Assembly: GCA_028824295.1 (NCBI GenBank)
Contig: JAPPED010000021.1
Span: 56,148-120,147 of the forward strand
Direction of reading: 5' to 3'
Source: Rhodospirillales bacterium
GTDB taxonomy: Bacteria > Pseudomonadota > Alphaproteobacteria > TMED109
DNA length: 64,000 bases
How positions within the stretch are numbered: position 1 is the first letter of the stretch; every line of letters starts with the position of its first letter. A program made the translations under genes and the position numbers. Under the pieces are notes generated by a model. The model was not told where the DNA came from. It saw only the letters and a program-made list of their open reading frames with translations, and did not search any database. This document shows, one piece after another, positions 3,221 through 45,864 of the stretch.

Positions 3221-4350
3221 AACGCACGGCCCTCATCCCGATCCCTCGCCGGCGGCCAGCTCGATCTGGGTTCGATCCAACCTCCCCCCAGGACCCGTGA
3301 TCCTCGGTAGAACACCGCCGCCTGACCCGGAGCAACGGCCTGTTCGGGAGACTGAAACGACACCTCTGCCCGGCCCCCGGCCAAGAGCCGTACGCGGCCA
3401 CTGGTACCGCGATGCGTGGAGCGCACCCGAAGCTGCACATCGTTCAGCTCGGTTCCGGGCTCCGACGCCTCGTCTGCGAGCCAGTTCACGTCGCGGATCG
3501 AAATGCCGGATACCCCGAGCGACTCCTTCGGGCCCACGACCACGCGTCGTTCAGCGGCGTCGATTCGGACCACGTAGAGGGGCTGGCCCGCGTCGGTGAC
3601 CCCGAGACCGCGCCGCTGGCCGACCGTGAACCCGGTGATCCCGGCGTGGCTGCCAAGCACCCGGCCATCCACGTGAACGATGTCTCCCACCGCAGCGGTG
3701 TCCGGGCGCAGTGTGCGAACGATGTCGCGATAGTCGCCGTCAGGAACAAAACAGATGTCCTGGCTCTCCGGCTTCTCGGCCACGCCGACGCCGGCCCGAA
3801 CCGCGGCCTGACGCGTTTGTTCCTTGGAGAACCCCCCCAATGGAAAGCGAAGCCGTTCGAGCTGTGTGCGGCTGGTGGCAAACAGGAAGTAGCTTTGGTC
3901 CTTTGACGCGTCGGCAGCTCGGTGGAGCTCGGGACCGCGCGGGCCCTCAACCCGCCGGACGTAGTGGCCGGTCGCCATCCAGTCGGCGTCGAGCTCCATC
4001 GCCGTATCCAGCAGGTCACGGAACTTCACCCGCTGATTGCAGAGGACGCACGGAACCGGGGTCACGCCTTCAGCGTACCGGTCGGCAAAGTCCTGCATCA
4101 CGTTGTCCTGAAACCGCTTTTCGTAGTCGAGCACATAGTGCGGGATGCCGAGATGGTCGGCCACGCGACGCGCGTCGTATACGTCCTGGCCAGCGCAGCA
4201 CGTCTTCGTGCCGGCATTGCGGCTTCCCCGGCCGTACAGGTGCAGCGTAATGCCGACGACTTCGTGTCCCGCATCATGCAGCAGCGCCGCCACGACCGAG
4301 CTGTCAACGCCGCCGGACATGGCGACGACGACGCGGCAGCGGCGGTTCAT
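3217..4350 (-). CDS. mnmA: tRNA-specific 2-thiouridylase MnmA
   Basis: Makes 2-thiouridine at position 34 of tRNA-Gln, -Glu and -Lys. The N-terminal PP-loop SGGVDSS is at residues 12-18. Catalytic cysteines are C104 (in PCVLCN) and C200 (in SQDICFV), and the tRNA-binding and C-terminal beta-barrel segments are present; 377 residues is family size. It overlaps the ybdK-like gene downstream and the hydrolase gene upstream by 4 bp each. A substrate, tRNA-Gln(UUG), is encoded at the start of the window. Confidence 0.95.
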   Translation of the reverse strand: MNRRCRVVVAMSGGVDSSVVAALLHDAGHEVVGITLHLYGRGSRNAGTKTCCAGQDVYDARRVADHLGIPHYVLDYEKRFQDNVMQDFADRYAEGVTPVPCVLCNQRVKFRDLLDTAMELDADWMATGHYVRRVEGPRGPELHRAADASKDQSYFLFATSRTQLERLRFPLGGFSKEQTRQAAVRAGVGVAEKPESQDICFVPDGDYRDIVRTLRPDTAAVGDIVHVDGRVLGSHAGITGFTVGQRRGLGVTDAGQPLYVVRIDAAERRVVVGPKESLGVSGISIRDVNWLADEASEPGTELNDVQLRVRSTHRGTSGRVRLLAGGRAEVSFQSPEQAVAPGQAAVFYRGSRVLGGGWIEPRSSWPPARDRDEGRAL

Positions 4351-7977: not shown

Positions 7978-9837
7978 GTGGGTAGATCGTCCATCCGCAC
8001 GCCGGTGGCCACGGACTTCGAGGTCGTGGTCCACCGACGGCTCTCACGACGCGGATTCCTTGGCGGGGCCGCCGCGCTGAGTGCGACTGCCTTCGTGATG
8101 GGGGCGGCCCGGGCCAAGCCCGCGCCGCCCGACCCGGCTCGCGGTCCCCTTCCATTCAGTTCGGTCGCCGCCAACACCCGTGACACTGTCACCGTGCCCG
8201 AGGGTTACAGCTGGCATGTCGTCGTGCGGTGGGCCGACGCGATGTGGTCAGACGGACATCCGCTCGACCCGGTCACCGGCGGGACCGGGGCCAGCCAGGA
8301 GCGTGCGTTCGGCGACAACAACGACGGGATGGAGTTGTTCACGATCGGCCACCGGACACTCCTCGCGGTCAACAACGAGTACGTCAACCGCCACATCCTG
8401 TTTGGAACGTCAGGCTCCGGGCTGCCCCGAACCGCCGACGACGTGCGCAAGAGCAAGGCGGCGCACGGTGTGTCGATCGTCGAGGTCCGTCAGCAAAACG
8501 GGACCTGGTCCGTCGTGTCGGACTCCTCCTACAACCGGCGGATCACGGCGGATACGCCTATGGCGATCACTGGACCCGCCCGCGGACATCACCTGCTCCG
8601 GACGGCCGCGGATCCTGCCGGTATCCAGAGCCTTGGTACCTGGAACAATTGCGGAAGCGGCAAGACCCCCTGGGGCACGTTCCTTACCTGCGAGGAGAAC
8701 TTCCACTTCTACTTCGCGTCGAGTGATCCCGAAGCGGAACTCCCCGATGCGCTCGCGCGTTACGGGGTCCAGGCGTCTGACCGCAACATCGGCTGGAGCG
8801 CCCACGACGAGCGCTTCGACATCGCAAGACATCCCAATGAACCCAACCGCGTGGGTTACGTCGTGGAGATCGACCCGACCGATCCCTTGTCGATTCCGAG
8901 GAAACGTACCGCGCTTGGCCGGTTCAAGCACGAAAACGCGGAACTGGTCGTGGCCGACTCCGGGCGGGTGGTCGTCTACATGGGGGACGATGAGAGGGGC
9001 GAGTTTCTCTACCGGTTCATCAGTGACGGGCACTACCGCGAAGGCGGGGACAACGCGGGACTTCTGGAAGCGGGCACGCTGTTCGCGGCCCGGTTTGACG
9101 ACGATGGCAGCGGTGCGTGGCTCCCACTCACACCGGAAACCACCGGGCTTCCTTCCGCGGCGGACATTTGCGTGCATACGCGACAGGCGGCCTCCGCTGT
9201 CCGCGCAACGACCATGGATCGCCCTGAATGGGTAGCCGCAAACCCGACCGGGCCCGAGGTGTACTGCTGTCTCACGAACAACACGCACCGCGGCAAGGAA
9301 CCCAACAGCGGAGGCGACCCCACCCCGGTCAACGGCCCGAACCCGAGGGCGGAAAACCGCTACGGCCAGATCGTGCGTTGGCGGCCTACGAGGGGCGATC
9401 ACGCCTCGTCCACGTTCTCCTGGGACCTCTACGTGGTGGCGGGAAATCCGGCCGTTCACACGGGTCCGAACGCCGGCTCACCCAACCTCACCACGGAGAA
9501 CATGTTCAATTCTCCCGACGGCCTGGCGTTTGACAGCACGGGGATGCTGTGGATCCAGACCGACGGGGCGTACTCGGACGAAGGCGACTTTGCCGGTCAG
9601 GGCAACAACCAGATGCTGCTGGGCCACCCGGCGACCGGCGAGATCCGACGCTTCCTGGTGGGCCCGAAAGAGTGCGAAGTCACCGGTGTGACCTGGAGCG
9701 CCGATCGAAAGACCATGTTCGTCGGAATCCAGCATCCTGGCGAAAAAGGCGGCAGCCACTTTCCCGGCGGCGGCGACACGATCCCCCGGTCTGCCGTGAT
9801 CGCCGTCACCCGTGACGACGGCGGGCGCATCGGCTGA
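7978..9837 (+). CDS. PhoX-family (DUF839) phosphatase, Tat-exported
   Basis: 619 residues. A twin-arginine signal (RRLSRRGFLGGAAAL, about residues 18-32) predicts folded export to the periplasm. The body matches PhoX/DUF839 beta-propeller enzymes: TFLTCEENFHFYF, FKHENAELV, YMGDDERGEFLYRF and FNSPDGLAFD, the last providing metal-binding acidic residues. PhoX enzymes use calcium and iron to release phosphate from organic phosphoesters. The start is a GTG; two ATGs just upstream are in another frame and run into a stop. It is monocistronic, with a hairpin 65 bp downstream. Whether this member is phosphate-regulated cannot be read from the sequence. Confidence 0.88.
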   Translation: MGRSSIRTPVATDFEVVVHRRLSRRGFLGGAAALSATAFVMGAARAKPAPPDPARGPLPFSSVAANTRDTVTVPEGYSWHVVVRWADAMWSDGHPLDPVTGGTGASQERAFGDNNDGMELFTIGHRTLLAVNNEYVNRHILFGTSGSGLPRTADDVRKSKAAHGVSIVEVRQQNGTWSVVSDSSYNRRITADTPMAITGPARGHHLLRTAADPAGIQSLGTWNNCGSGKTPWGTFLTCEENFHFYFASSDPEAELPDALARYGVQASDRNIGWSAHDERFDIARHPNEPNRVGYVVEIDPTDPLSIPRKRTALGRFKHENAELVVADSGRVVVYMGDDERGEFLYRFISDGHYREGGDNAGLLEAGTLFAARFDDDGSGAWLPLTPETTGLPSAADICVHTRQAASAVRATTMDRPEWVAANPTGPEVYCCLTNNTHRGKEPNSGGDPTPVNGPNPRAENRYGQIVRWRPTRGDHASSTFSWDLYVVAGNPAVHTGPNAGSPNLTTENMFNSPDGLAFDSTGMLWIQTDGAYSDEGDFAGQGNNQMLLGHPATGEIRRFLVGPKECEVTGVTWSADRKTMFVGIQHPGEKGGSHFPGGGDTIPRSAVIAVTRDDGGRIG

Positions 9838-36044: not shown

Positions 36045-36330
36045 GCTCCACCGCTAGACCTGCCGCGCGCCCCAGTACGTGACGCTATTGCTCAAGACAG
36101 GGAGCACACCACCTGTCAGCAGTCTTCGGCTTTCCGCTGACTGAAGACAGCCTATTGCTGCTCCACGTCGAGCATGCCTTTGCGGTGCACGTGCGTTTGC
36201 TGTTGAATGAGAGCGGCCCGCACGTAGGGTGCCTTTCGCAATAGTCATTCTACGCACCGGCGAAAATCGTCGCACGGCGGATGACACGCTGCGGTCGCCG
36301 CCGCCTTCCGCAGGCAACAGGGACCCGGGC

Positions 36331-38097
36331 ATGGAACGCGACGAGTCTGGCCGAAGCTCCGGCAGCCGCCATCCCGACGCGAAGACCCCGGTTCCGCTCA
36401 GCGTGGGTCTCGCCCTTCAGATTGCCTGCCTGGTGTTGCCCGGCGCGGTGATGATCCCGACAGTCGTGTTCCGGGCGGCCGGTCAGCCGGAGGACGTGCT
36501 GCTGTGGGCCGTGTTCGCCTCGGTAGCCGCCTGCGGCGCGACCACGATGCTCCAGGCGCGGCGGATCGGCCGGTTTGGTGCCGGCTACATTCTCGCGATC
36601 GGAACCTCCGGGGCCGCCATCGCCGTCAGCATTGCCGCCCTCGCCGCGGGCGGCCCGGCGTTGCTCGCGACTCTCGTCGTCATCCTCTCAGTGGTCCAGT
36701 TCGTGTTCTCGGCACGTCTCTCGCTGTTCCGGCGCATCCTTACGCCGACGGTCACAGGCACGATCCTGATGCTGACACCGGTCACGGTCATGCCGGTCAT
36801 GTTCGACCAGTTGAAGAACGTGCCGAGCGGGACGTCGCCGCTCGCCGCGCCGTTCAGCGCGGTGGTGACCCTGGTTGTCATCGCCGGCGTCACCCTGACC
36901 GCAAGGGAGCGGGCGCGCCTGTGGGCGCCGGTCATCGGCATCGTCGCGGGCTCGATCGTCGCAGGCATGTTCGGCCTGTATGACGTCGACCGCATTGTGC
37001 AGGCTGCGTGGATCGGTATTCCGGCGCCGGCATGGTCGGCCCTGGATCTGCGCTTCGGAACCGAGTTCTGGGCACTCCTCCCTGCCTTCGTGTTCATCGC
37101 GCTGGTCTGCACGATGCAAACCATCAGCGGCGCAGTCGCCATCCAGCGCGTGTCTTGGGCCGAGAGCCGGGCAGTCGATTTCCGGGCGGTGCAGGGTGCG
37201 GTGGCGGCCGACGGGGCCGGCAATCTGCTGTCGGGCCTGGCGGGCACGATGCCGCTCGGCTTCCGGCCGAGCGGCGCGTCCATGGTCGAGATCACCGGGA
37301 TCAGCTCCCGCAGGATCGGCATCGCGCTCGGGGCGTCGCTGATCGTGCTGGCATTCGTTCCCAAGGCGCTGGCCGTGATCCTGGCGATACCCGGTCCGGT
37401 CATCACGGCGTTCGTCACCGTCACGATGGCGACCATCTTCATCATCGGCATGAAGGTGATCCTGCAGGACGGAATCGACTACCGCAAAGGCCTGATCGCC
37501 GGGGTCTCGTTCTGGATCGGCGCGGGCTTTCAGAGCGGGGCGGTCATTCCGGACGGTGTCTCGGAGTTTGCCCGCGCGCTCATGCAGAACGGGATGCTGA
37601 CCGGAGGCGTCGTGGCGATCGTCATGACCCTGACCGTCGAGCTGATGAGGCCGCGGCGGCGGCGGATGGAGGCGGAGCTCGAACCCGCCGCCCTGCACAA
37701 GATCCGGGAGTTTGTCGGTGCATTCGCGTCACAAAGAGGCTGGGACGCGCAGATGGTGAACCGCCTCGACGCCGTCTGCGAAGAGACCCTGCTGACGCTC
37801 CTGCAACAAGACGAGCCAGGCACGGATGTCGAACGGCGGCGTCTGTTCCTCACCGCGCGCAGCGGGGACGGCGGAGCAGTGCTGGAGTTCGTTGCCTCGA
37901 CCGGTGAGGAGAGGAACATTCAGGACCGCATTGCGCTGCTCGGCGAGGCCAGCGCCAGCGAGATGATCGAGCGTGAGGTATCGTTGCGGTTGTTGCGTCA
38001 CTTGGCCTCGTCGGTCCGTCATCAGCAATACCATGACACAGATATCGTGACCGTCCGCGTGGAGCCGCCGGGAGCAAAGCTGCCCCGGGGGTTGTAG
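36331..38097 (+). CDS. NCS2-type permease with C-terminal HATPase-like extension
   Basis: 588 residues. The first about 440 form a nucleobase-cation-symporter-2 membrane domain (xanthine/uracil permease family): 12-14 helices, GTSGAAIAV, and the QTISGAVAIQRVS and GTMPLGFRPSGASMVEITG segments. The last 140 residues are soluble: KIREFVGAFASQRGWDAQMVNRLDAVCEETLLTLLQ resembles the first helices of RsbW-like HATPase domains. NCS2 permeases are usually 420-460 residues. Start taken at ATG 36331 (AGGGA upstream); a GTG at 36229 is possible. The substrate is not inferable. Confidence 0.8.
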   Translation: MERDESGRSSGSRHPDAKTPVPLSVGLALQIACLVLPGAVMIPTVVFRAAGQPEDVLLWAVFASVAACGATTMLQARRIGRFGAGYILAIGTSGAAIAVSIAALAAGGPALLATLVVILSVVQFVFSARLSLFRRILTPTVTGTILMLTPVTVMPVMFDQLKNVPSGTSPLAAPFSAVVTLVVIAGVTLTARERARLWAPVIGIVAGSIVAGMFGLYDVDRIVQAAWIGIPAPAWSALDLRFGTEFWALLPAFVFIALVCTMQTISGAVAIQRVSWAESRAVDFRAVQGAVAADGAGNLLSGLAGTMPLGFRPSGASMVEITGISSRRIGIALGASLIVLAFVPKALAVILAIPGPVITAFVTVTMATIFIIGMKVILQDGIDYRKGLIAGVSFWIGAGFQSGAVIPDGVSEFARALMQNGMLTGGVVAIVMTLTVELMRPRRRRMEAELEPAALHKIREFVGAFASQRGWDAQMVNRLDAVCEETLLTLLQQDEPGTDVERRRLFLTARSGDGGAVLEFVASTGEERNIQDRIALLGEASASEMIEREVSLRLLRHLASSVRHQQYHDTDIVTVRVEPPGAKLPRGL

Positions 38098-38225: not shown

Positions 38226-38528
38226 ATGTATTGTGTCGCTTTCGTCACCCACAAGCCGGGACGGGTACAGGCAGGCAGCGAACTTCAAAACGCCTACATG
38301 GAGTTTCTGCGCAATCATCCGGGACATCCCGATGTCGTCGTCCACCACGCTGGCCCAACTCTCTCTGACGACTCGGAGGCCATTGTCGGCTTGGTACTAA
38401 TCGCCGAGGCACCCTCCCCGGAGGCGACGCGGGCGTTTCTGGCCGACAGTCCCTATGGCAAGGGGGACGTGTTCGCCGACGTCCAAGTCCGGCCGTGGGA
38501 ATGGAGAACGGGACGCCCGGGTTCGTAA
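38226..38528 (+). CDS. YciI-like (YCII domain) protein
   Basis: 100-residue ferredoxin-like fold of the YciI family: MYCVAFVTHKPG at the start, the family's conserved HHAGPTLSDDSEAIVGLVLIAEAPS, and DSPYGKGDVF with the DP/Y region. The family is linked to hydrolytic or stress functions, and the activity is largely unknown. A TTGACA hexamer lies 58 bp upstream of the ATG. Confidence 0.88.
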   Translation: MYCVAFVTHKPGRVQAGSELQNAYMEFLRNHPGHPDVVVHHAGPTLSDDSEAIVGLVLIAEAPSPEATRAFLADSPYGKGDVFADVQVRPWEWRTGRPGS

Positions 38529-38625: not shown

Positions 38626-39333
38626 CTAGTTCTTGATGAAGTGACCTAGGTAGTGGCGGCTTTCCGCCGGCGCGTCGCCCGGGCCTATGCGAGCGTCGTG
38701 AACCAGCCGCTCCGTGCAGCAGACGTACGCGACATTCTCCGACTGAAGCATGCGCAAGCAGGCCGTGCCCGGAGTGTTCCTGATAAAGGTGTCCGCAACT
38801 TCGCAGGGATGCAGGCTTTCCGCCGACTCCACGCTTGCTGCCATGTTCTCGATCGGCACGGGCACCACGTAGACATACCGGTTTCCGGGACCCCGGTTCA
38901 CGACGATTCGGTTCCGGCTCCTCCACCTTGAGGACAGGTCGAAGCCATCCCAAGAATCAAGGTGCAGCCCCAGCCTCAGTCCCGATTCCCGGTCGACCGT
39001 GACCGAAGGAAACTTCCCGTGATCGATCGACGGCTCAAGCGTAACCACCGGCGACAGGCTGAGAAACGGCGTGAAATCAAGCGCGCTCTCGGATGTCAGC
39101 GCGCAGGGAAAGATCGCGATGAAATCCAGTTCGTCGTCGATGGAAAGCTCATCAAGCGGAGCGGTGTATGTCCTGACTTCATGTTCATCCAACCTCCTGA
39201 AGTCGGCCGGCAGCCTGGCGTCGGGTCGATAGCCGGCCGCGTCCGGATGTAACCTCTTGACGCTGACGAGTGTGTCGCTGAACGCGATCAAGTCGCGCGC
39301 ATCCCCCAGTCTGCGATCGACGTAGATCTTCAT
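38626..39333 (-). CDS. Putative Fe(II)/2-oxoglutarate-type oxygenase in the RiPP locus
   Basis: About 235 residues (start at the internal ATG; an ATG 51 bases further out is possible). I know no named family for it. The pattern GLHLDSWDG (H124, D126), NRGPGNRYVYVV, and TERLVHDA (H212) followed 14 residues later by R226 (SRHYLGHF) is the HxD...H...R arrangement of Fe(II)/2OG dioxygenases. The N-terminal half is unlike known proteins. It lies 99 bp downstream of the radical SAM gene on the same strand, so it is probably the second tailoring enzyme of the peptide. Assignment from motif geometry only. Confidence 0.55.
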   Translation of the reverse strand: MKIYVDRRLGDARDLIAFSDTLVSVKRLHPDAAGYRPDARLPADFRRLDEHEVRTYTAPLDELSIDDELDFIAIFPCALTSESALDFTPFLSLSPVVTLEPSIDHGKFPSVTVDRESGLRLGLHLDSWDGFDLSSRWRSRNRIVVNRGPGNRYVYVVPVPIENMAASVESAESLHPCEVADTFIRNTPGTACLRMLQSENVAYVCCTERLVHDARIGPGDAPAESRHYLGHFIKN

Positions 39334-39432
39334 TACGGACCTGACGCCACCGGCGTGCGGACGCATCGCCACCGTGTGTTGCATCGATCCATCAGAGCCT
39401 CCGGACCTCGCGCCACGCGTATATCGACCGTC

Positions 39433-40614
39433 TCAGATCAAGTCGGCGCCCACTCTCTCCAGCGGCTCGCCATGCAAGGCCAGGTACTTCACAACGTGGG
39501 TATAGAACTTGTCCAGTCCTTGACAATAGATCGTGGGGTTATCGAAACCGTTGTGCCTCGCGTACCGGTGCACCGGCTGGCCACTGCCACAGACTTCACG
39601 CCAGCAGCAGTCCGAACATGCGGACGCGGGTGTCTTCTTGAAGTACTCGAATTCGTGAAACAGCGGGTCCCGGATGATCTCTTCGATGCTGGAACTCTTC
39701 AGATCCCGGTATTCGTATCCGCTCCAGTACGTCGTGGATCGCAAGGTATCGTCCGGCCCGACCCCGCCGTCCGACGACACGGTGAGCAGGAGATAGTCCG
39801 GGTCGTCCCTCCGGGCGCCGAACAGGAAATTCCCGTGCCCGTAGATGCGAGCCAGGAAATGATCGATGAACCTGACGCTGACCGGCTCCTCGTCCTTCAC
39901 CATCATGTCGAAGATCCTGATCAGAAATTCACCGTATGCCTCCGCGTCACCGCGAAAGTTGTCGTGATTCAGGTCGGGAAGCAGAAAATCAAGGTGCTGC
40001 ACGTTCAGGTCATGTCGAAAGTGCTCGTAGATGTCCTTGGGATTGAAGTTCTCCCCGACCACGGCCAGGATCATCGGCTTCCGATGTAGGTGTTCCTGGC
40101 ACAACGCCAGTCCGCGAACGGTCGCCTGGTAGGACGACCGGCCACGGTGATCGCGACGATGAGCGTCGTTGTGCACCTTCGCGCCGTCAAGGCTGACCCC
40201 CACTTCTACGCCATGCCGGTTGAAGATCTCTATCCACCCGAGATCGATCAGCATGCCGTTGGTCTGGACCGTCAACGCCAGGTCCACGACGTGCCCCAAT
40301 CCTGATCGGATCTCTTCGCAGATGCTGTCAAGCCGGGCTTTCGGCATCAAGAGCGGTTCGCCGCCATGCAGGTGAATCGCGATGCGCTGCAGTTCGTACT
40401 CTCTGGAGAATTGCTCGAGCCGCCGGACCAGCAATGCGACCGTGTCATCGGCAATGAACGCTGCATGATGCTGGTAGCTGTCATCCCCCGCGTTGAAGAA
40501 ATAACAATAGTCGCAGTCCAGGTTGCAGCGTTCGGTGATCTTCAAGATGACTTCCAGCGTTCGGAGGCCCCGGAAGTTCACCGTTCTTCCATCGGTTGCG
40601 ACGGCCATCGTCAT
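39433..40614 (-). CDS. Radical SAM/SPASM peptide maturase (cyclophane type)
   Basis: 393 residues. The SAM 4Fe-4S motif is CNLDCDYC (C30, C34, C37). HLHGGEPLLM gives the GGEP motif and TVQTNG and SLDGAKVHND follow. The C-terminal SPASM-like cysteines are C333, C336, C337, C342 and C364, with VCGSGQPVHRYARHNGFDNP matching the hallmark of the FxsB/GrrM/XyeB cyclophane-forming maturases. Such enzymes couple an aromatic side chain to a neighbour two residues on. Its likely substrate, with NFVS repeats, is encoded 514 bp upstream on the same strand. No transporter or protease gene is adjacent. Confidence 0.85.
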   Translation of the reverse strand: MTMAVATDGRTVNFRGLRTLEVILKITERCNLDCDYCYFFNAGDDSYQHHAAFIADDTVALLVRRLEQFSREYELQRIAIHLHGGEPLLMPKARLDSICEEIRSGLGHVVDLALTVQTNGMLIDLGWIEIFNRHGVEVGVSLDGAKVHNDAHRRDHRGRSSYQATVRGLALCQEHLHRKPMILAVVGENFNPKDIYEHFRHDLNVQHLDFLLPDLNHDNFRGDAEAYGEFLIRIFDMMVKDEEPVSVRFIDHFLARIYGHGNFLFGARRDDPDYLLLTVSSDGGVGPDDTLRSTTYWSGYEYRDLKSSSIEEIIRDPLFHEFEYFKKTPASACSDCCWREVCGSGQPVHRYARHNGFDNPTIYCQGLDKFYTHVVKYLALHGEPLERVGADLI

Positions 40615-41127
40615 TTTCTTGCAGGGCTGCCGGCGGTGGATCCAGACCGTTGGTGCGGCCGTCGCGTGGTTGCAGCGCTTGCCGCGCTACGCACCAGCGA
40701 GGCTGGCATCGAACACACGCGAAGCTTACGCCCTCTTCCGGAAATCACGCCGCGCCTCGTTCGCGGTAGATGCTGACGAATCCCGGGAATGGAACGAAAG
40801 CGGCTGCCAGGTCGACTTGGCAGGGCCCGAGGCGTCTGCTGGGCTGGCGAATCTTCCCCGGGGAACTTGGAGGCCCCATGACCCTTGGCGGTCCCCGGCC
40901 CGGGATCGGGGGCTGCCTCCCTATGGGTGAGCGAAGATGTTCGGCGTGCCCGCCTGGCCCGGCCTCCGCCGTTCCTGCCCCGCGCAGGGCACGCATTTGT
41001 GCCGATACCGCCGGGTCATGTCGAAGCCGCCCGGCATACACGCAATCAAGTTCCGTCGGAAATCCGGCGGTTTCCTCAGGCCCTTCCGGCAGCAGGGTCA
41101 GGCAATCGACCCTGGATGCAAGTGATG
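40615..41127 (-). other. Gap between RiPP precursor and radical SAM gene
   Basis: 513 bp with a hairpin at its precursor-proximal end (41093-41114). Long open frames exist on both strands because of GC content, but none has a ribosome-binding site with recognisable sequence. A 41-codon frame starting MPGGFDMTRRYRHK was noted and not called. Confidence 0.4.
41093..41114 (-). terminator. Hairpin just after the RiPP precursor gene
   Basis: CAGGGTC and GACCCTG form a perfect 7-bp stem with an 8-base loop, 13 bp after the precursor stop. It has no U tract, so it fits partial termination or RNA stability that would let the precursor be made in excess of the enzymes. Confidence 0.45.
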
Positions 41128-41436
41128 TCAGGTGGCTGCCGTACCGCTCATGGCCGGCGCGGACACGAAGTTCCCGCCCGTTCTGAGCCGATCGTCCGCC
41201 ACCGCAGCACCGCTCATGGCCGGCGCGGACACGAAGTTGCCTCCCGTTCTGAGCCGATCGTCCGCCACCGCAGCACCACTCATGGCCGGCGCGGACACGA
41301 AGTTGCCTCCCGCGCGAGCGTAGCCTGAGATCTTCTTCTGCAGGTTCGGGCTGACTGCCCTGCCTGCCGCAGCCTTCTGGTCTTCCGCGGAAATCCCCAG
41401 TTTCTGGCGGAGCCTCCGCACCTTCAGATCGTCCAT
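41128..41436 (-). CDS. Repeat-containing RiPP precursor
   Basis: 102 residues: a 42-residue charged leader (MDDLKVRRLRQKLGISAED...) then three repeats. Each repeat starts GGNFVSAPAMSG; the first two continue with AAVADDRLRT, and the third ends TAAT. The FVS triad (F46, F68, F90) fits the aromatic-X-Ser substrates of FxsB-type cyclophane enzymes. Strong ribosome-binding site GGAGAGG, 6 bp before the ATG, and a promoter with perfect -35 box. Divergent from the Rieske genes. It has no homologue that I recognise. Confidence 0.75.
   Translation of the reverse strand: MDDLKVRRLRQKLGISAEDQKAAAGRAVSPNLQKKISGYARAGGNFVSAPAMSGAAVADDRLRTGGNFVSAPAMSGAAVADDRLRTGGNFVSAPAMSGTAAT
41131..41310 (-). repeat. 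Three 66-bp coding repeats in the RiPP precursor
   Basis: Two full units of exactly 66 bp and a third partial one, on codons 43-64, 65-86 and 87-102. They are nearly identical in DNA as well as protein, indicating recent duplication or conversion that keeps the core sequence fixed. Confidence 0.95.
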
Positions 41437-41483
41437 GGGTCACCTCTCCATCCGTACGCTGAACGCCCAAAAAGAGGCATTGA

Positions 41484-41512
41484 TTCATACTCTATCATCC
41501 TGTTTCTGTCAA
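41484..41512 (-). promoter_or_regulatory. Sigma-70 promoter of the RiPP precursor
   Basis: On the minus strand TTGACA (41512-41507) is a perfect -35 hexamer. The spacer is exactly 17 bp and the -10 is TATGAA (41489-41484, 4 of 6 matches). Transcription would start near 41477, giving a leader of about 40 bases before the precursor ATG at 41436. Confidence 0.7.
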
Positions 41513-41674
41513 CCCTTTGACACGGAGCCGGCACTGTGGGCGGCGCCACAACGGAGTTCGGCAGCGTTCGGAGCGGTGAGACCTTGAGGGGGAACGGCGC
41601 GCCGGCCGGCGCCGCCCGCAATGATGCCCCGGTATCATGTCTTCCGATCAAGGTCCGGGGGAACGGACGGACTT

Positions 41675-43033
41675 ATGGACATCCAGGACCTGATTGTCGA
41701 CGACCGGGAGCGCGGGGTCTTCAAGGTCCATCGATCGTGCATGACGTCCGTCGACCTGTTCCGGCGGGAAAGGGAACGAATCTTCGACCACTGCTGGATC
41801 TACCTGGGACACGAATCGGAAGTCGAGAGGCCCGGAGACTATCGCCGCCGCACAGTGGCTGGCCGGCCGCTGTTCTTTGTCCGCAGCAGCGACGGGCAGA
41901 TCCGGGTGTTCCTGAATTCGTGCCCGCACCGGGGTGCGCAGATCTGTCGCAGTGACGCCGGCAATGCCGAGATTCTTCGGTGCTTCTATCACGCCTGGAC
42001 GTTCAACACCCGCGGCGAGCTGATCGGCGTTCCCGGGCAGGAAGCCTACGGCCCCGGCTTCGATCGGAGCGAATTCGGCCTGAAGGCGCCGCCCAGGGTG
42101 GACAGCTACCGGGGCTTCTATTTCGTGAGCTTCAACGCGCACGGCGAGGACCTCGTCAGCTACCTGGCGGGTGCCAAGGACTACCTTGACCTGGTCGTCG
42201 ACCAGGCCGAGGACGGGATGCGGGTGGTGCCCGGCTCCAACAAGTACGCCATCAAGGCCAACTGGAAGCTGCTGGCCGAGAACAGCCTTGACGGCTATCA
42301 CCTGGTCCCGACGCATCGGACCTACGTCGACTACCTGACCGGTCTCGGGACAGACGACAGCGGCGGCACGCTGGCTGCCCGCCCGCCCGGCCGGGGGAGG
42401 GCGCTGGGCAACGGCCACTGCGTGTCGGAGAACATCTCCAGAAACGGTCGCCCCATCGCCCGTTGGCACCCGATCTTCGGCGAGGAGGCCAGGGAGCGCG
42501 TCGCGCAGGTGCGCGCGCGGCTGGTCCGGAAATTCGGGGAAGAACGGGCCTACCGGATGGCCGACCTCTCTCGAAATCTGCTCATCTATCCGAACTTGCT
42601 GATCATGGACTTCGTGGCGATCAGCATCAGGTACATCGAACCCCTGGCGCCGGACAACATGGCGGTCACGGCCTGGCACCTCGTGCCCCGGGAGGAATCG
42701 GGTGCGGCGCTGGCCGCCCGCCTGGACAGCTACCTGACATTCCTCGGACCGGGCGGCTTCGCCACGCCGGATGACGTCGAGGCGCTGGAATCCTGCCAGG
42801 CCGGTTTCCGGGCTACCGAAACCGAATGGTCCGACATCTCAAGGGGCATGCTGAAACCCTGCCCGGGCACGGCCGATGAACTCCAGATCCGAGGCTTCTG
42901 GCGGCAGTGGCACGCGAACATGCAGGGCCTAGATACGGCCGACGTGCAGGACGGAGAGCCGGCAGAATCGCAGGCCGCAGCGGCTTCTTCGGAAGCCGAT
43001 GGCCGTGGGCACCGCCGGACCGGTGAACGATGA
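41675..43033 (+). CDS. Rieske ring-hydroxylating dioxygenase alpha subunit
   Basis: 452 residues. The Rieske 2Fe-2S ligands are CPHRG (C83, H85) and CFYHAW (C103, H106). The catalytic domain has the mononuclear iron pair H208 and H213 in DGYHLVPTH, with the bridging Asp205. The large subunit hydroxylates aromatic rings, using electrons from a reductase not seen here. Start at MDIQDL (ATG 41675). It is divergent from the RiPP precursor with 238 bp between starts and overlaps the beta gene by 4 bp. Confidence 0.9.
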   Translation: MDIQDLIVDDRERGVFKVHRSCMTSVDLFRRERERIFDHCWIYLGHESEVERPGDYRRRTVAGRPLFFVRSSDGQIRVFLNSCPHRGAQICRSDAGNAEILRCFYHAWTFNTRGELIGVPGQEAYGPGFDRSEFGLKAPPRVDSYRGFYFVSFNAHGEDLVSYLAGAKDYLDLVVDQAEDGMRVVPGSNKYAIKANWKLLAENSLDGYHLVPTHRTYVDYLTGLGTDDSGGTLAARPPGRGRALGNGHCVSENISRNGRPIARWHPIFGEEARERVAQVRARLVRKFGEERAYRMADLSRNLLIYPNLLIMDFVAISIRYIEPLAPDNMAVTAWHLVPREESGAALAARLDSYLTFLGPGGFATPDDVEALESCQAGFRATETEWSDISRGMLKPCPGTADELQIRGFWRQWHANMQGLDTADVQDGEPAESQAAAASSEADGRGHRRTGER

Positions 43034-43524
43034 CAGCCCTCGGGAGGTGCGCGTTGTCGGGAATGGTGGAGGAATTCCTGTTCAGGGAAGCGGCACTTCT
43101 GGATGACTGGAAGCTGGAGGAGTGGATCGGTTTGTTTACGGAGGACGCCCGGTACGTCGTTCCTTCCACGGATCTACCGGAGGGAGACCCCGGGCGCGAC
43201 CTGGTGTTCATCGACGACGACATCGTTCGTTTGCGCGCTCGGGTGACGCGGTTGAACAGCCGTCATTCCCACCGCGAGCGCCCCCGGTCCCGCACCCGCC
43301 GGTTTGTCTCCAACGTGCGCGTGGAAGAAACCGACGAAGAACACCTATCGGTCCGCGCAAATGTCCTCGTCTACAGGTTTCGCAGTGGCGAGGGTGCGCC
43401 TTACGTCGGCGCCATCGAGTACACCTTGAGGAGGGAGGGCGGAGACTTCAGAATCGCGTACCGCCGCGCAGTGCTGGACCTGGAAGATCTCTCCTGGCAC
43501 GGCGCGGTGAGCATCATCATTTGA
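43030..43524 (+). CDS. Ring-hydroxylating dioxygenase beta subunit
   Basis: 164 residues, NTF2-like cone fold typical of dioxygenase beta subunits: VEEFLFREAALLDDWKLEEWIGLFTEDARYVVPS and RTRRFVSNVRVEE match the family. The subunit stabilises the alpha3beta3 enzyme. It overlaps the alpha gene (ATGA). Confidence 0.9.
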   Translation: MTALGRCALSGMVEEFLFREAALLDDWKLEEWIGLFTEDARYVVPSTDLPEGDPGRDLVFIDDDIVRLRARVTRLNSRHSHRERPRSRTRRFVSNVRVEETDEEHLSVRANVLVYRFRSGEGAPYVGAIEYTLRREGGDFRIAYRRAVLDLEDLSWHGAVSIII

Positions 43525-45009: not shown

Positions 45010-45864
45010 CTAGCGTCTTGTGCATAGGTGCTTCCGCAACAGCGGCTCGTGGCTAGTATCCAGACAAAAGACATATTTGTCCGCCTGTTGGACGCTGTGC
45101 TTGTTCACGCTCTTCAGAAACTCGCGGCCGTTGGTCACGGTTTTCGCAGATTCGTGCCGGAACGCATAGAACACAGTGAAGGGATCTAGGGGAAGCATCC
45201 ATACCGCTTCGATGTGGTCGAAGGCGTATTTCCGGATCAAGGGCCGATCCGACAAGAGAAAAGTTCCTTGCCCAGGGCGGGTGCGGGCAAGGCTCCAATG
45301 CCAATTGATAAACTTCTGACCGTAACTGCCATCATTGACTAAGTCCTGCACTTTGGCGACGGCACGATCCTCGGATAGGAGCCCCAGCTCCCTGGCGTAG
45401 AACGAAGGGGCCTCGTCGAAGCCCTCCTCCTCGAGGAGAGCCCGGAAACCCTGATCGCTGTCCATTTCCTGTTCCATGACTTCGGGCCCGCGCCTGCGCA
45501 GCTCGTGGATCAGCGGCGGACGGCGGTATTCAAGCGAGAACAGCAATCGCGTGAAGTCGGAGCGATCGTCCTCCGTCAAGGCTTCAACGCCGTTCTTGAC
45601 CAGCTTGTCCATTGCAGCAGCGCCCTGGGTGTCGACCGGACCAAAGAAATCAGTTTCCAGCACGTCCGACGCCAAGTTCTGCACGCCCACCGAGAAGAGA
45701 TCACGTTCGTAGCAGAAGGCTTTCGCACCCTGGGTCCGGTGCGCGAGGGCGTGCTTGTGACGATCCCAGTAATAGGCGCCGACACTGCTGGCGTCAGGGT
45801 TCGGCGCCCACTTCTTGAGAAGGAACTCCGGAACGTAGTGATGTCTGTGGGTTGTCTGCTGCAC
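45010..45864 (-). CDS. DUF4238 protein
   Basis: 284 residues. N-terminal HRHHYVPEFLLKKWA is the DUF4238 signature. Function unknown; members are scattered and often in accessory regions. It lies inside the repeats with hicAB, and the antitoxin gene is 72 bp upstream in the same direction. No signal peptide. Confidence 0.85.
   Translation of the reverse strand: MQQTTHRHHYVPEFLLKKWAPNPDASSVGAYYWDRHKHALAHRTQGAKAFCYERDLFSVGVQNLASDVLETDFFGPVDTQGAAAMDKLVKNGVEALTEDDRSDFTRLLFSLEYRRPPLIHELRRRGPEVMEQEMDSDQGFRALLEEEGFDEAPSFYARELGLLSEDRAVAKVQDLVNDGSYGQKFINWHWSLARTRPGQGTFLLSDRPLIRKYAFDHIEAVWMLPLDPFTVFYAFRHESAKTVTNGREFLKSVNKHSVQQADKYVFCLDTSHEPLLRKHLCTRR

Follow-up and report, generated by a model that had tools for sequence, protein, structure and literature searches.

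A candidate multi-core triceptide-type RiPP cluster with linked oxygenase genes in a Rhodospirillales bacterium

A conserved three-gene cluster

What product would be made from a precursor peptide with three near-identical NFVS-containing units whose gene stands beside those of a radical SAM enzyme and an HxD...H protein? This question was examined in a window of 64,000 nucleotides (i.e. the whole stretch of DNA analysed), in which the three genes lie on the same strand (Table 1). Related clusters were found in 17 other bacterial genomes, all of them metagenome-assembled and collected via the maturase alone, not via the precursor. A precursor homologue was present upstream of the maturase in 17/17 of these maturase-derived loci of its clade as compared to 0/40 maturase loci outside the clade, indicating that the cluster is not a chance arrangement. 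The HxD...H gene was observed downstream in 16/17. The trio named in the original prediction is real and conserved as a set, and a lack of precursor homologues beside the maturase elsewhere, designated beforehand as grounds for refutation, was not observed. The cluster is wider in 8/18 genomes than the limits first proposed for the locus (38626..41512).

A gap of 513 bp (40615-41127) separates the precursor and maturase genes, with spacings between about 70 and 320 bp in the relatives. A mobile insert was considered for this gap and dropped, as the sequence occurs once in the genome and the relatives contain gaps too. Searches for promoter-like and terminator-like sites returned none and one, respectively, as compared to 0.8 and 2.2 expected by shuffling, and were uninformative.

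Table 1. Features of the cluster and its neighbours, in window positions
Feature	Position	Strand	Basis
Xanthine/uracil-type permease, associated, weaker	36229..38097	+	PF00860 99.6 bits; near cluster in 14/18
YCII-domain protein, associated	38226..38528	+	PF03795 39.6 bits; near cluster in 13/18
Predicted Fe(II)/2-oxoglutarate oxygenase, 252 aa	38626..39384	-	MicC profile match, model, fold neighbours
H229, predicted third iron ligand	38698..38700	-	invariant; aligned to IIHDGS of MicC
H141-L-D143, predicted iron ligands	38956..38964	-	invariant 25/25 (A3), 26/26 (A2)
Radical SAM maturase, SPASM-like C-terminus, 393 aa, likely cyclophane-forming	39433..40614	-	Radical_SAM Pfam, NCBIfam, clade
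CNLDCDYC, CX3CX2C of SAM cluster, residues 30-37	40504..40527	-	three Cys invariant, 21/21 aligned maturases
Precursor peptide, 102 aa	41128..41436	-	no NCBIfam family, no Pfam match over cut-off
Core 3, GGNFVSAP	41155..41178	-	sequence, conservation
Core 2, GGNFVSAP	41221..41244	-	sequence, conservation
Core 1, GGNFVSAP	41287..41310	-	sequence, conservation
Leader, residues 1-42, with LRxKLGIS motif	41311..41436	-	first core position, leader dN/dS
Rieske ring-hydroxylating oxygenase alpha subunit, accessory	41621..43033	+	Rieske 67.4, Ring_hydroxyl_A 54.8 bits, over cut-off
Rieske oxygenase beta subunit	43030..43524	+	Ring_hydroxyl_B 116.6 bits, over cut-off

Precursor peptide and repeated cores

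Database searches yielded 58 homologues of the precursor, and each of the 18 genomes contained one precursor locus. In genome G098 the precursor was split into two pieces, which represent one N-interrupted gene. The peptide belongs to no recognised family, as had been noted before; weak Pfam matches, which comprise the CCT motif (21 bits against a cut-off of 28.4) and three that score lower, were treated as chance. Core 1 starts after residue 42 in 55/58 homologues. The leader exhibited a median dN/dS of 0.21 (85 usable of 153 pairs), indicating from sequence comparison that the precursor frame is under purifying selection and not, as one preset ground for refutation had it, without constraint (i.e. 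dN/dS near 1).

The three 22-residue units place the cores at residues 43, 65 and 87 (i.e. a spacing of 22), and at the DNA level the unit repeats every 66 bp with 2.6 copies, 97% matches and a score of 319, in agreement with the earlier description of a 102-residue, three-repeat precursor. A chance repeat was rejected on this score, the 58 homologues and the 17/17 upstream precursors. The number of cores per precursor varied from 1 to 5; as the precursor of locus L012 has a single core, three cores are not essential.

Across the 174 cores of the 58 database precursors, Phe and Ser were each present in 174/174. The residue between them was Val in 162 and Ile in 12, and the core Asn was replaced by His in 3/174. 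The metagenome-assembled genome L010 had Leu between Phe and Ser in both of its cores. Phe was encoded by both of its codons and Ser by all four TCN codons in the 50 cores read as DNA. As the counts of 174 and 50 cores derived from search patterns requiring part of the core, they were rechecked with a relaxed pattern. Every in-frame Gly-Gly after the leader then fell in a full GGxFxS core (51 cores, 18 loci), and neither degenerate cores nor an FxS lacking the preceding GG were found in the 18 loci; non-core GG occurred only in leaders, in the out-of-frame P0277 tail and in the part of L005 past its N run. An invariance forced by the search pattern was rejected on this result.

FxSxx-COOH precursors are defined by FxSxx at the very C-terminus. 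Such an end directly at the core was observed in 23/58 homologues, and the window's precursor ends differently, in ...FVSAPAMSGTAAT.

Maturase and cross-link chemistry

The maturase scored 58.8 bits with the Radical_SAM Pfam profile (cut-off 29.5) and 17.9 bits with Pfam SPASM (cut-off 21.5), and has conserved cysteines at C333, C336, C337, C342 and C364. An FxsB/GrrM/XyeB-type enzyme had been proposed from the motifs CNLDCDYC and VCGSG..HRY..GFDNP. Both motifs are present, the second as VCGSGQPVHRY..GFDNP, but membership of a named family was not borne out by curated cut-offs: scores were 283.5 bits for XyeB (TIGR04496; cut-off 450), 279.8 bits for YhhB (NF041707; cut-off 445) and 255.8 bits for FxsB (TIGR04269; cut-off 370). 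All three profiles, the best in NCBIfam for this protein, carry names of cyclophane-forming enzymes. In a tree the maturase fell in its own clade with a support of 100/100, and its nearest solved relative was 9gm3 ('ChlB radical SAM domain'), which the A1 profile matched at E 3.2e-59. With its radical SAM domain beginning at residue 25, the maturase has no room for a separate N-terminal leader-binding domain.

Triceptide maturases include XncB, OscB, MscB and YhhB (PMC11002830, citing Nguyen 2020 and Sugiyama 2022), and that paper gives the MscB cross-link as Phe C4 to the C-beta of Ser, two residues on. As Phe-X-Ser is this published cross-link site, a product with one Phe-Ser cyclophane per core is likely on the present analysis; the earlier reading of FVS as aromatic-X-Ser gains both this precedent and the invariance of the two residues.

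Other chemistry on the core (i.e. a cyclopropane on Val, an Asn-centred link or epimerisation) is an unlikely explanation. In its favour, TvgB, a SPASM-type enzyme encoded together with an alpha-ketoglutarate enzyme, converts Val of TVGG repeats to cyclopropylglycine (PMC9062424, PMC11002830); core Val and Asn are also well conserved here. However, the middle residue may be Ile or Leu and Asn may be His, whereas Phe and Ser have no replacement at all and the best profiles of the maturase point to cyclophane formation.

Predicted oxygenase and proposed pathway

The original prediction had recorded the HxD...H protein simply as an adjacent gene. Its presence was confirmed, with one such gene in 17/18 cluster genomes, and the protein is now predicted to be a MicC-like Fe(II)/2-oxoglutarate oxygenase. 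Sequence searches matched MicC (9vkm) at E 1.8e-6 with the A3 profile, and the putative iron triad of H141, D143 and H229 was invariant in 25/25 sequences. A structure model (pLDDT 81) exhibited a double-stranded beta-helix fold, and its fold neighbours were Fe/2OG oxygenases among the matches listed by Foldseek and VIA-align; MicC, although found by sequence, was not among the 50 matches listed. Neither NCBIfam nor Pfam assigned a family to the protein, and two single NCBIfam matches among 26 relatives were treated as chance.

It is probable that the maturase joins Phe to Ser in each core and that the predicted oxygenase then oxidises the cross-linked peptide. The 42-residue leader would recruit the maturase, which would link the Phe ring to the C-beta of Ser as a three-residue cyclophane; each core would gain one ring with a loss of 2 Da, giving up to three rings here. 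The Fe/2OG oxygenase may then hydroxylate the ring or a neighbouring residue, and the Gly-Gly before each core could act as a hinge or cut point. In some lineages a Rieske oxygenase may oxidise the product further, with the Phe ring as the simplest target. The shared neighbours examined included no protease or exporter that the clusters have in common, so leader removal would need enzymes encoded elsewhere.

PQQ and mycofactocin are redox cofactors made from peptides via radical SAM enzymes. The repeat peptide could likewise be the precursor of an intracellular small cofactor or signal (e.g. for the neighbouring oxygenase) with no secreted product, which the lack of a shared exporter or protease would suit. 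We consider this very unlikely: a core number varying from 1 to 5 is unlike cofactor precursors, for which variable core number is not known to us, and no dedicated user enzyme conserved in all 18 genomes was found.

Comparison with known systems

On sequence grounds, the cluster would encode a multi-core triceptide-type RiPP with added oxygenases. It shares with triceptides a CX3CX2C radical SAM maturase, here with a SPASM-like C-terminus, beside the precursor and an aromatic-X-X core with conserved linked positions (i.e. F and S), and differs in a maturase that forms its own clade below every NCBIfam cut-off and in a precursor that has 1-5 internal FxS cores and fits no known family. XyeB-type relatives of the maturase (about 33-38% identity) also adjoin precursors with GG directly before the core, which is of WVN/FAR type, an arrangement that matches a single unit of the present precursor.

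The 'H(Y)NR' pathway, which we take to be the Yhh pathway, is a further comparison. As described in a passage of PMC9062424 (SSN Cluster 41), it likewise pairs a radical SAM enzyme and a repeat precursor with a putative alpha-ketoglutarate/Fe oxidase, but has a Y/H-N-R core and a putative peptidase, and no Rieske oxygenase is named in that passage. The TVG pathway of Halomonas (TvgA/B/C), from the same source, resembles the present cluster in having cores repeated in tandem, a radical SAM enzyme and an alpha-ketoglutarate-dependent enzyme, and differs in forming cyclopropylglycine on Val and in its cluster transporters; TvgC belongs to IPR018724, whereas the HxD...H protein has no Pfam match. 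MicC ('Alpha-ketoglutarate-dependent non-heme iron oxygenase MicC') is the sole solved sequence relative of the latter and aligns at the HxD and distal His, but is distant from it.

A literature search found no paper on NFVSAP, GGNFVS or an 'NFVS motif'. As a RiPP family with a clear Phe-X-Ser site, several near-identical cores and a compact three-gene set, the cluster offers a convenient system in which to ask if these maturases take the cores one at a time.

Linked Rieske oxygenase genes

Sequence comparison established the precursor with its conserved repeats, the order of the genes, the families of the enzymes and a Rieske linkage in 8/18 genomes. This linkage of a two-subunit Rieske oxygenase to the cluster is new and, like the YCII gene and the permease, did not feature in the original prediction. 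PF00355, PF00848 and PF00866 all scored over cut-off, and the pair is divergent from the precursor, with 184 bp between their starts. In these eight genomes the pair lay no more than 1.2 kb from the cluster, in four arrangements, with the beta gene beside the alpha gene in all eight.

Two readings of this linkage were weighed. A Rieske oxygenase that oxidises the cyclophane Phe rings as a peptide tailoring enzyme is a tentative and somewhat doubtful proposal, while an even chance is given to the Rieske pair, the YCII gene and the permease being an island of their own, for catabolism or uptake, which just travels along with the peptide cluster. With an ortholog defined by 70% identity or more, the Rieske ortholog was single-copy and close to the cluster in 8/8 cluster genomes having one, and in L005, L006 and L010 the pair immediately preceded the precursor gene in the same orientation. 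Within a set of 97 genomes around the window's own, the same two contained the HxD...H gene and the Rieske ortholog; across 385 genomes of the class, orthologs of the maturase and of the Rieske enzyme again occurred in the same two; and no sampled genome had a Rieske ortholog without the cluster. These distributions argue against mere co-travelling. On the other side, 10/18 clusters have no Rieske ortholog, and in L012 a distance of 1.2 kb, with two short frames in it, separates the pair from the cluster. More distant alpha relatives (53% identity or less) occurred in 25 genomes of the class in which nothing matched the maturase at E 1e-60.

The closest enzymes to the alpha subunit are aromatic dioxygenases (naphthalene, biphenyl, benzoate), with 2b1x as best solved match (E 4.2e-57), which also favours a catabolic role. 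The subunit pair shares with these enzymes the Rieske and catalytic alpha domains and a beta subunit, but the alpha subunit scored far below the cut-off for benzoate 1,2-dioxygenase (TIGR03229, BenA; 298.2 bits against 780.95) and the pair is linked to a RiPP cluster. A literature search on this point found no radical SAM RiPP pathway with a Rieske ring-hydroxylating oxygenase; in the passages of PMC13311259 examined, Rieske occurs once, in the title of a reference about mupirocin. The linkage, which is exclusive in this sample of genomes, directs attention to an enzyme class that the search did not find in such pathways. If the tailoring proposal were true, a Rieske ring-hydroxylating oxygenase would have a ribosomal peptide as substrate, and three iron enzyme classes (radical SAM, Fe/2OG and Rieske) would act in turn on one repeat peptide.

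The permease had 2-9 matches in each of 17 genomes and was downgraded as evidence of linkage because of these further copies, which again suits a co-travelling island. Together with the YCII gene, it lies on the other side of the cluster from the Rieske pair.

A conserved three-gene cluster

The repeat-core precursor, the radical SAM maturase and the HxD...H protein (a predicted Fe(II)/2-oxoglutarate oxygenase homologous to MicC) form a real, conserved and well-typed cluster whose gene content, gene order and conservation were directly observed. When a species-genome collection was scanned for two conserved maturase peptide patterns, at least 57 loci were returned, 17 of which (L004-L019 and L052; 64-95% identity) fell in the same clade as the window's enzyme. 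In a tree of 67 maturases that took in 15 of the 18 clade members (window included), this clade was supported at 100/100 and its stem measured 0.95 changes per site. A precursor lay upstream of the maturase at 17/17 clade loci and 0/40 other loci, bearing out the original prediction that homologues would adjoin this maturase in other genomes. The HxD...H gene, originally noted as an adjacent member of the locus, was the downstream gene at 16/17 clade loci; in L010 it was absent near the cluster and from the whole assembly. A protein search with the HxD...H protein returned 99 relatives, of which 98 had ≥57% identity and one had 28%. One precursor locus was present in each of 18 genomes (i.e. 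the window's own and 17 MAGs reached through the maturase alone).

The sole non-clade maturase locus, of 40, with a MicC-like oxygenase (HxD...H relative, E 2.5e-18) was L044, from a Caulobacter MAG. A maturase relative, a short candidate precursor and this oxygenase occur together in L044:7497-13134, as does a frame that resembles an ABC exporter.

Table. Features of the cluster and its surroundings in the window
Feature	Position	Strand	Details
Permease	36229-38097		622 residues; Pfam domain 61-434
HxD...H protein	38626-39384	minus	252 residues
Radical SAM enzyme (maturase)	39433-40614	minus	393 residues
Precursor	41128-41436	minus	102 residues
Rieske alpha	41621-43033		divergent to precursor, 184 bp away
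Rieske beta	43030-43524		follows alpha, far side of precursor
DUF4238 protein	45010-45864		close to Rieske genes

Precursor cores and constraint

The description of a repeat precursor with three core units and no recognised family was confirmed on both counts. GGNFVSAP starts at residues 43, 65 and 87, behind a 42-residue leader, the DNA repeat has a period of 66 bp with 97% matches, and searches returned no NCBIfam family and nothing above cut-off in Pfam. Fifty-eight precursor relatives were obtained by protein search, together carrying 174 cores (three in 30 precursors, two in 13, four in 13, five in one and one in one). The leader before the first core was 42 residues long in 55/58, and the C-terminus directly followed a core (FxSxx-COOH) in 23/58. 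Core positions 1-4 were G174, G174, N171/H3 and F174, and positions 5-8 were V162/I12, S174, A171/S3 and P150/A22/I1/R1, in a set that favours unchanged cores because the search requires shared 5-residue words. In a scan with a relaxed pattern, every in-frame GG past the leader opened a complete GGxFxS core, and FxS never occurred without its preceding GG; the 18 loci carried 51 full cores and no degenerate in-frame core. Runs of N inside the core repeats of L004 (2759-2858, 100 bases) and L005 (within 3656-4096) are probably scaffold gaps at the repeats.

As had been anticipated, the precursor frame is constrained rather than near a dN/dS of 1: the leader had a median dN/dS (Nei-Gojobori) of 0.21 (range 0.05-0.62) for 85 of 153 pairs, with 68 pairs excluded for dS <0.15, >2 or saturated. 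In 50 cores of the 18 loci, counted with a search pattern that itself demanded F and S, Phe codons were TTC31/TTT19, Ser codons were TCC17/TCT14/TCG10/TCA9 and the middle residue was V46, I2 or L2. Phe and Ser are present in all cores with mixed codons, and thus both residues are fixed whilst their codons drift.

Maturase type and proposed chemistry

The maturase contains CX3CX2C and its top three NCBIfam profiles are all named cyclophane-forming (i.e. XyeB, 283.5 of 450 bits; YhhB, 279.8 of 445; FxsB, 255.8 of 370), followed by a sulfatase maturase profile at 149.8 bits. Assignment to a cyclophane type was supported by the best profiles but all three cut-offs were missed. Similar profile behaviour was exhibited by P0056, a clade member at 65% identity, and in the same search two Xenorhabdus/Photorhabdus enzymes (L025, L030) exceeded the XyeB cut-off with 463 and 714 bits. 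The maturase had 279 relatives in a protein search; among the 120 matches listed, P0001-P0059 had at least 65% identity and P0060 and below at most 40%. Candidate precursors adjoining XyeB-type relatives carry GG immediately before a WVN or FAR core, so that one unit here may represent a shortened and multiplied core of that kind.

MscB, a published triceptide maturase, joins Phe C4 to Ser C-beta (PMC11002830), the geometry of F-V-S in the window's cores. Together with F and S in 174/174 cores, this agrees with the proposal that FVS is an aromatic-X-Ser motif. The core Val could instead be the target of chemistry like that of TvgB, which makes cyclopropylglycine from Val in TVGG repeats (PMC9062424), but the varying middle residue counts against this. 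For a Phe-Ser cyclophane, the leader would guide the maturase and the link would be formed core by core; the Fe/2OG enzyme would then oxidise the product, units may be released at Gly-Gly or through trimming, and the Rieske enzyme could contribute an optional further oxidation.

Multi-core candidates were also seen at other maturase loci. In L020 (Undibacterium hunanense), a candidate precursor ORF with several YNQ/YTQ/HSQ/YTM motifs within Gly-rich repeats stops 213 bp short of the maturase match at 8001 (37% relative) and is possibly another multi-core aromatic-X-X peptide. A candidate precursor ORF with four HTD repeats in L026 (Rickettsiaceae MAG) ends 3 bp before the match at 2052 (34% relative), a possible His-X-Asp repeat peptide.

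Association with Rieske genes

In 8/18 genomes, relatives of Rieske alpha and beta were located no more than 1.2 kb from the cluster. Four arrangements were observed: the genes are divergent in the window and L004, upstream on the cluster's own strand in L005, L006 and L010, downstream and convergent in L007 and L052, and, in L012, downstream on the same strand at 1.2 kb with two short frames between. These frames (L012:9880-11070, HxD...H gene to Rieske alpha) resemble a toxin-antitoxin pair whose toxin is of the PIN type. Whole-genome searches of the 18 detected a Rieske ortholog (≥70%) in precisely those 8, in single copy, and other matches at E 1e-60 reached 39% and 36% only. For 97 genomes around and including the window's own, the Rieske ortholog and HxD...H gene occurred in the same two, and two others had Rieske relatives of 32-36%. 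Across 385 genomes of the class, in a comparison where one search scored at most 4 candidates per genome, the maturase ortholog (≥85%) and Rieske ortholog (≥87%) were found in the same two; one more genome had a 37% maturase relative and 25 had just Rieske relatives (≤53%). Searches of an open-access library turned up no paper placing Rieske oxygenases in radical SAM RiPP pathways; the Rieske linkage seen here is the bold part of the finding.

Distribution and other neighbours

Of seven genomes of the window's own genus, five have neither the HxD...H gene nor the Rieske ortholog; the module is therefore patchy, and it may move between lineages. The 17 clade loci derive from MAGs labelled Alpha- or Gammaproteobacteria (including one OMG group and one Pseudomonadales) plus one Candidatus Binatota; judging by their isolate codes, most of the 17 are probably from marine sponges. 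The maturase was present in 7 of 58 genomes around G106, a gammaproteobacterial genome, all within the known 17.

A YCII gene was near the cluster in 13/18 genomes and a permease in 14/18, but each genome has 2-9 permease matches. Frames common to at least three loci were listed, and family assignment was made for ten of the longer frames: these included TRAP transporter parts, a permease, SHMT, an amine oxidase-like protein, a Fic protein, ARPP-1, a luciferase-like monooxygenase and two without family, with no protease or exporter among the ten. TRAP transporter DctQ and DctM frames near the cluster, at positions of ~13-17 kb in the loci, were common to L007, L008, L012 and L052. The window's permease extends nearly 190 residues past its Pfam domain, and this C-terminal end may be an RsbW-type ATPase domain.
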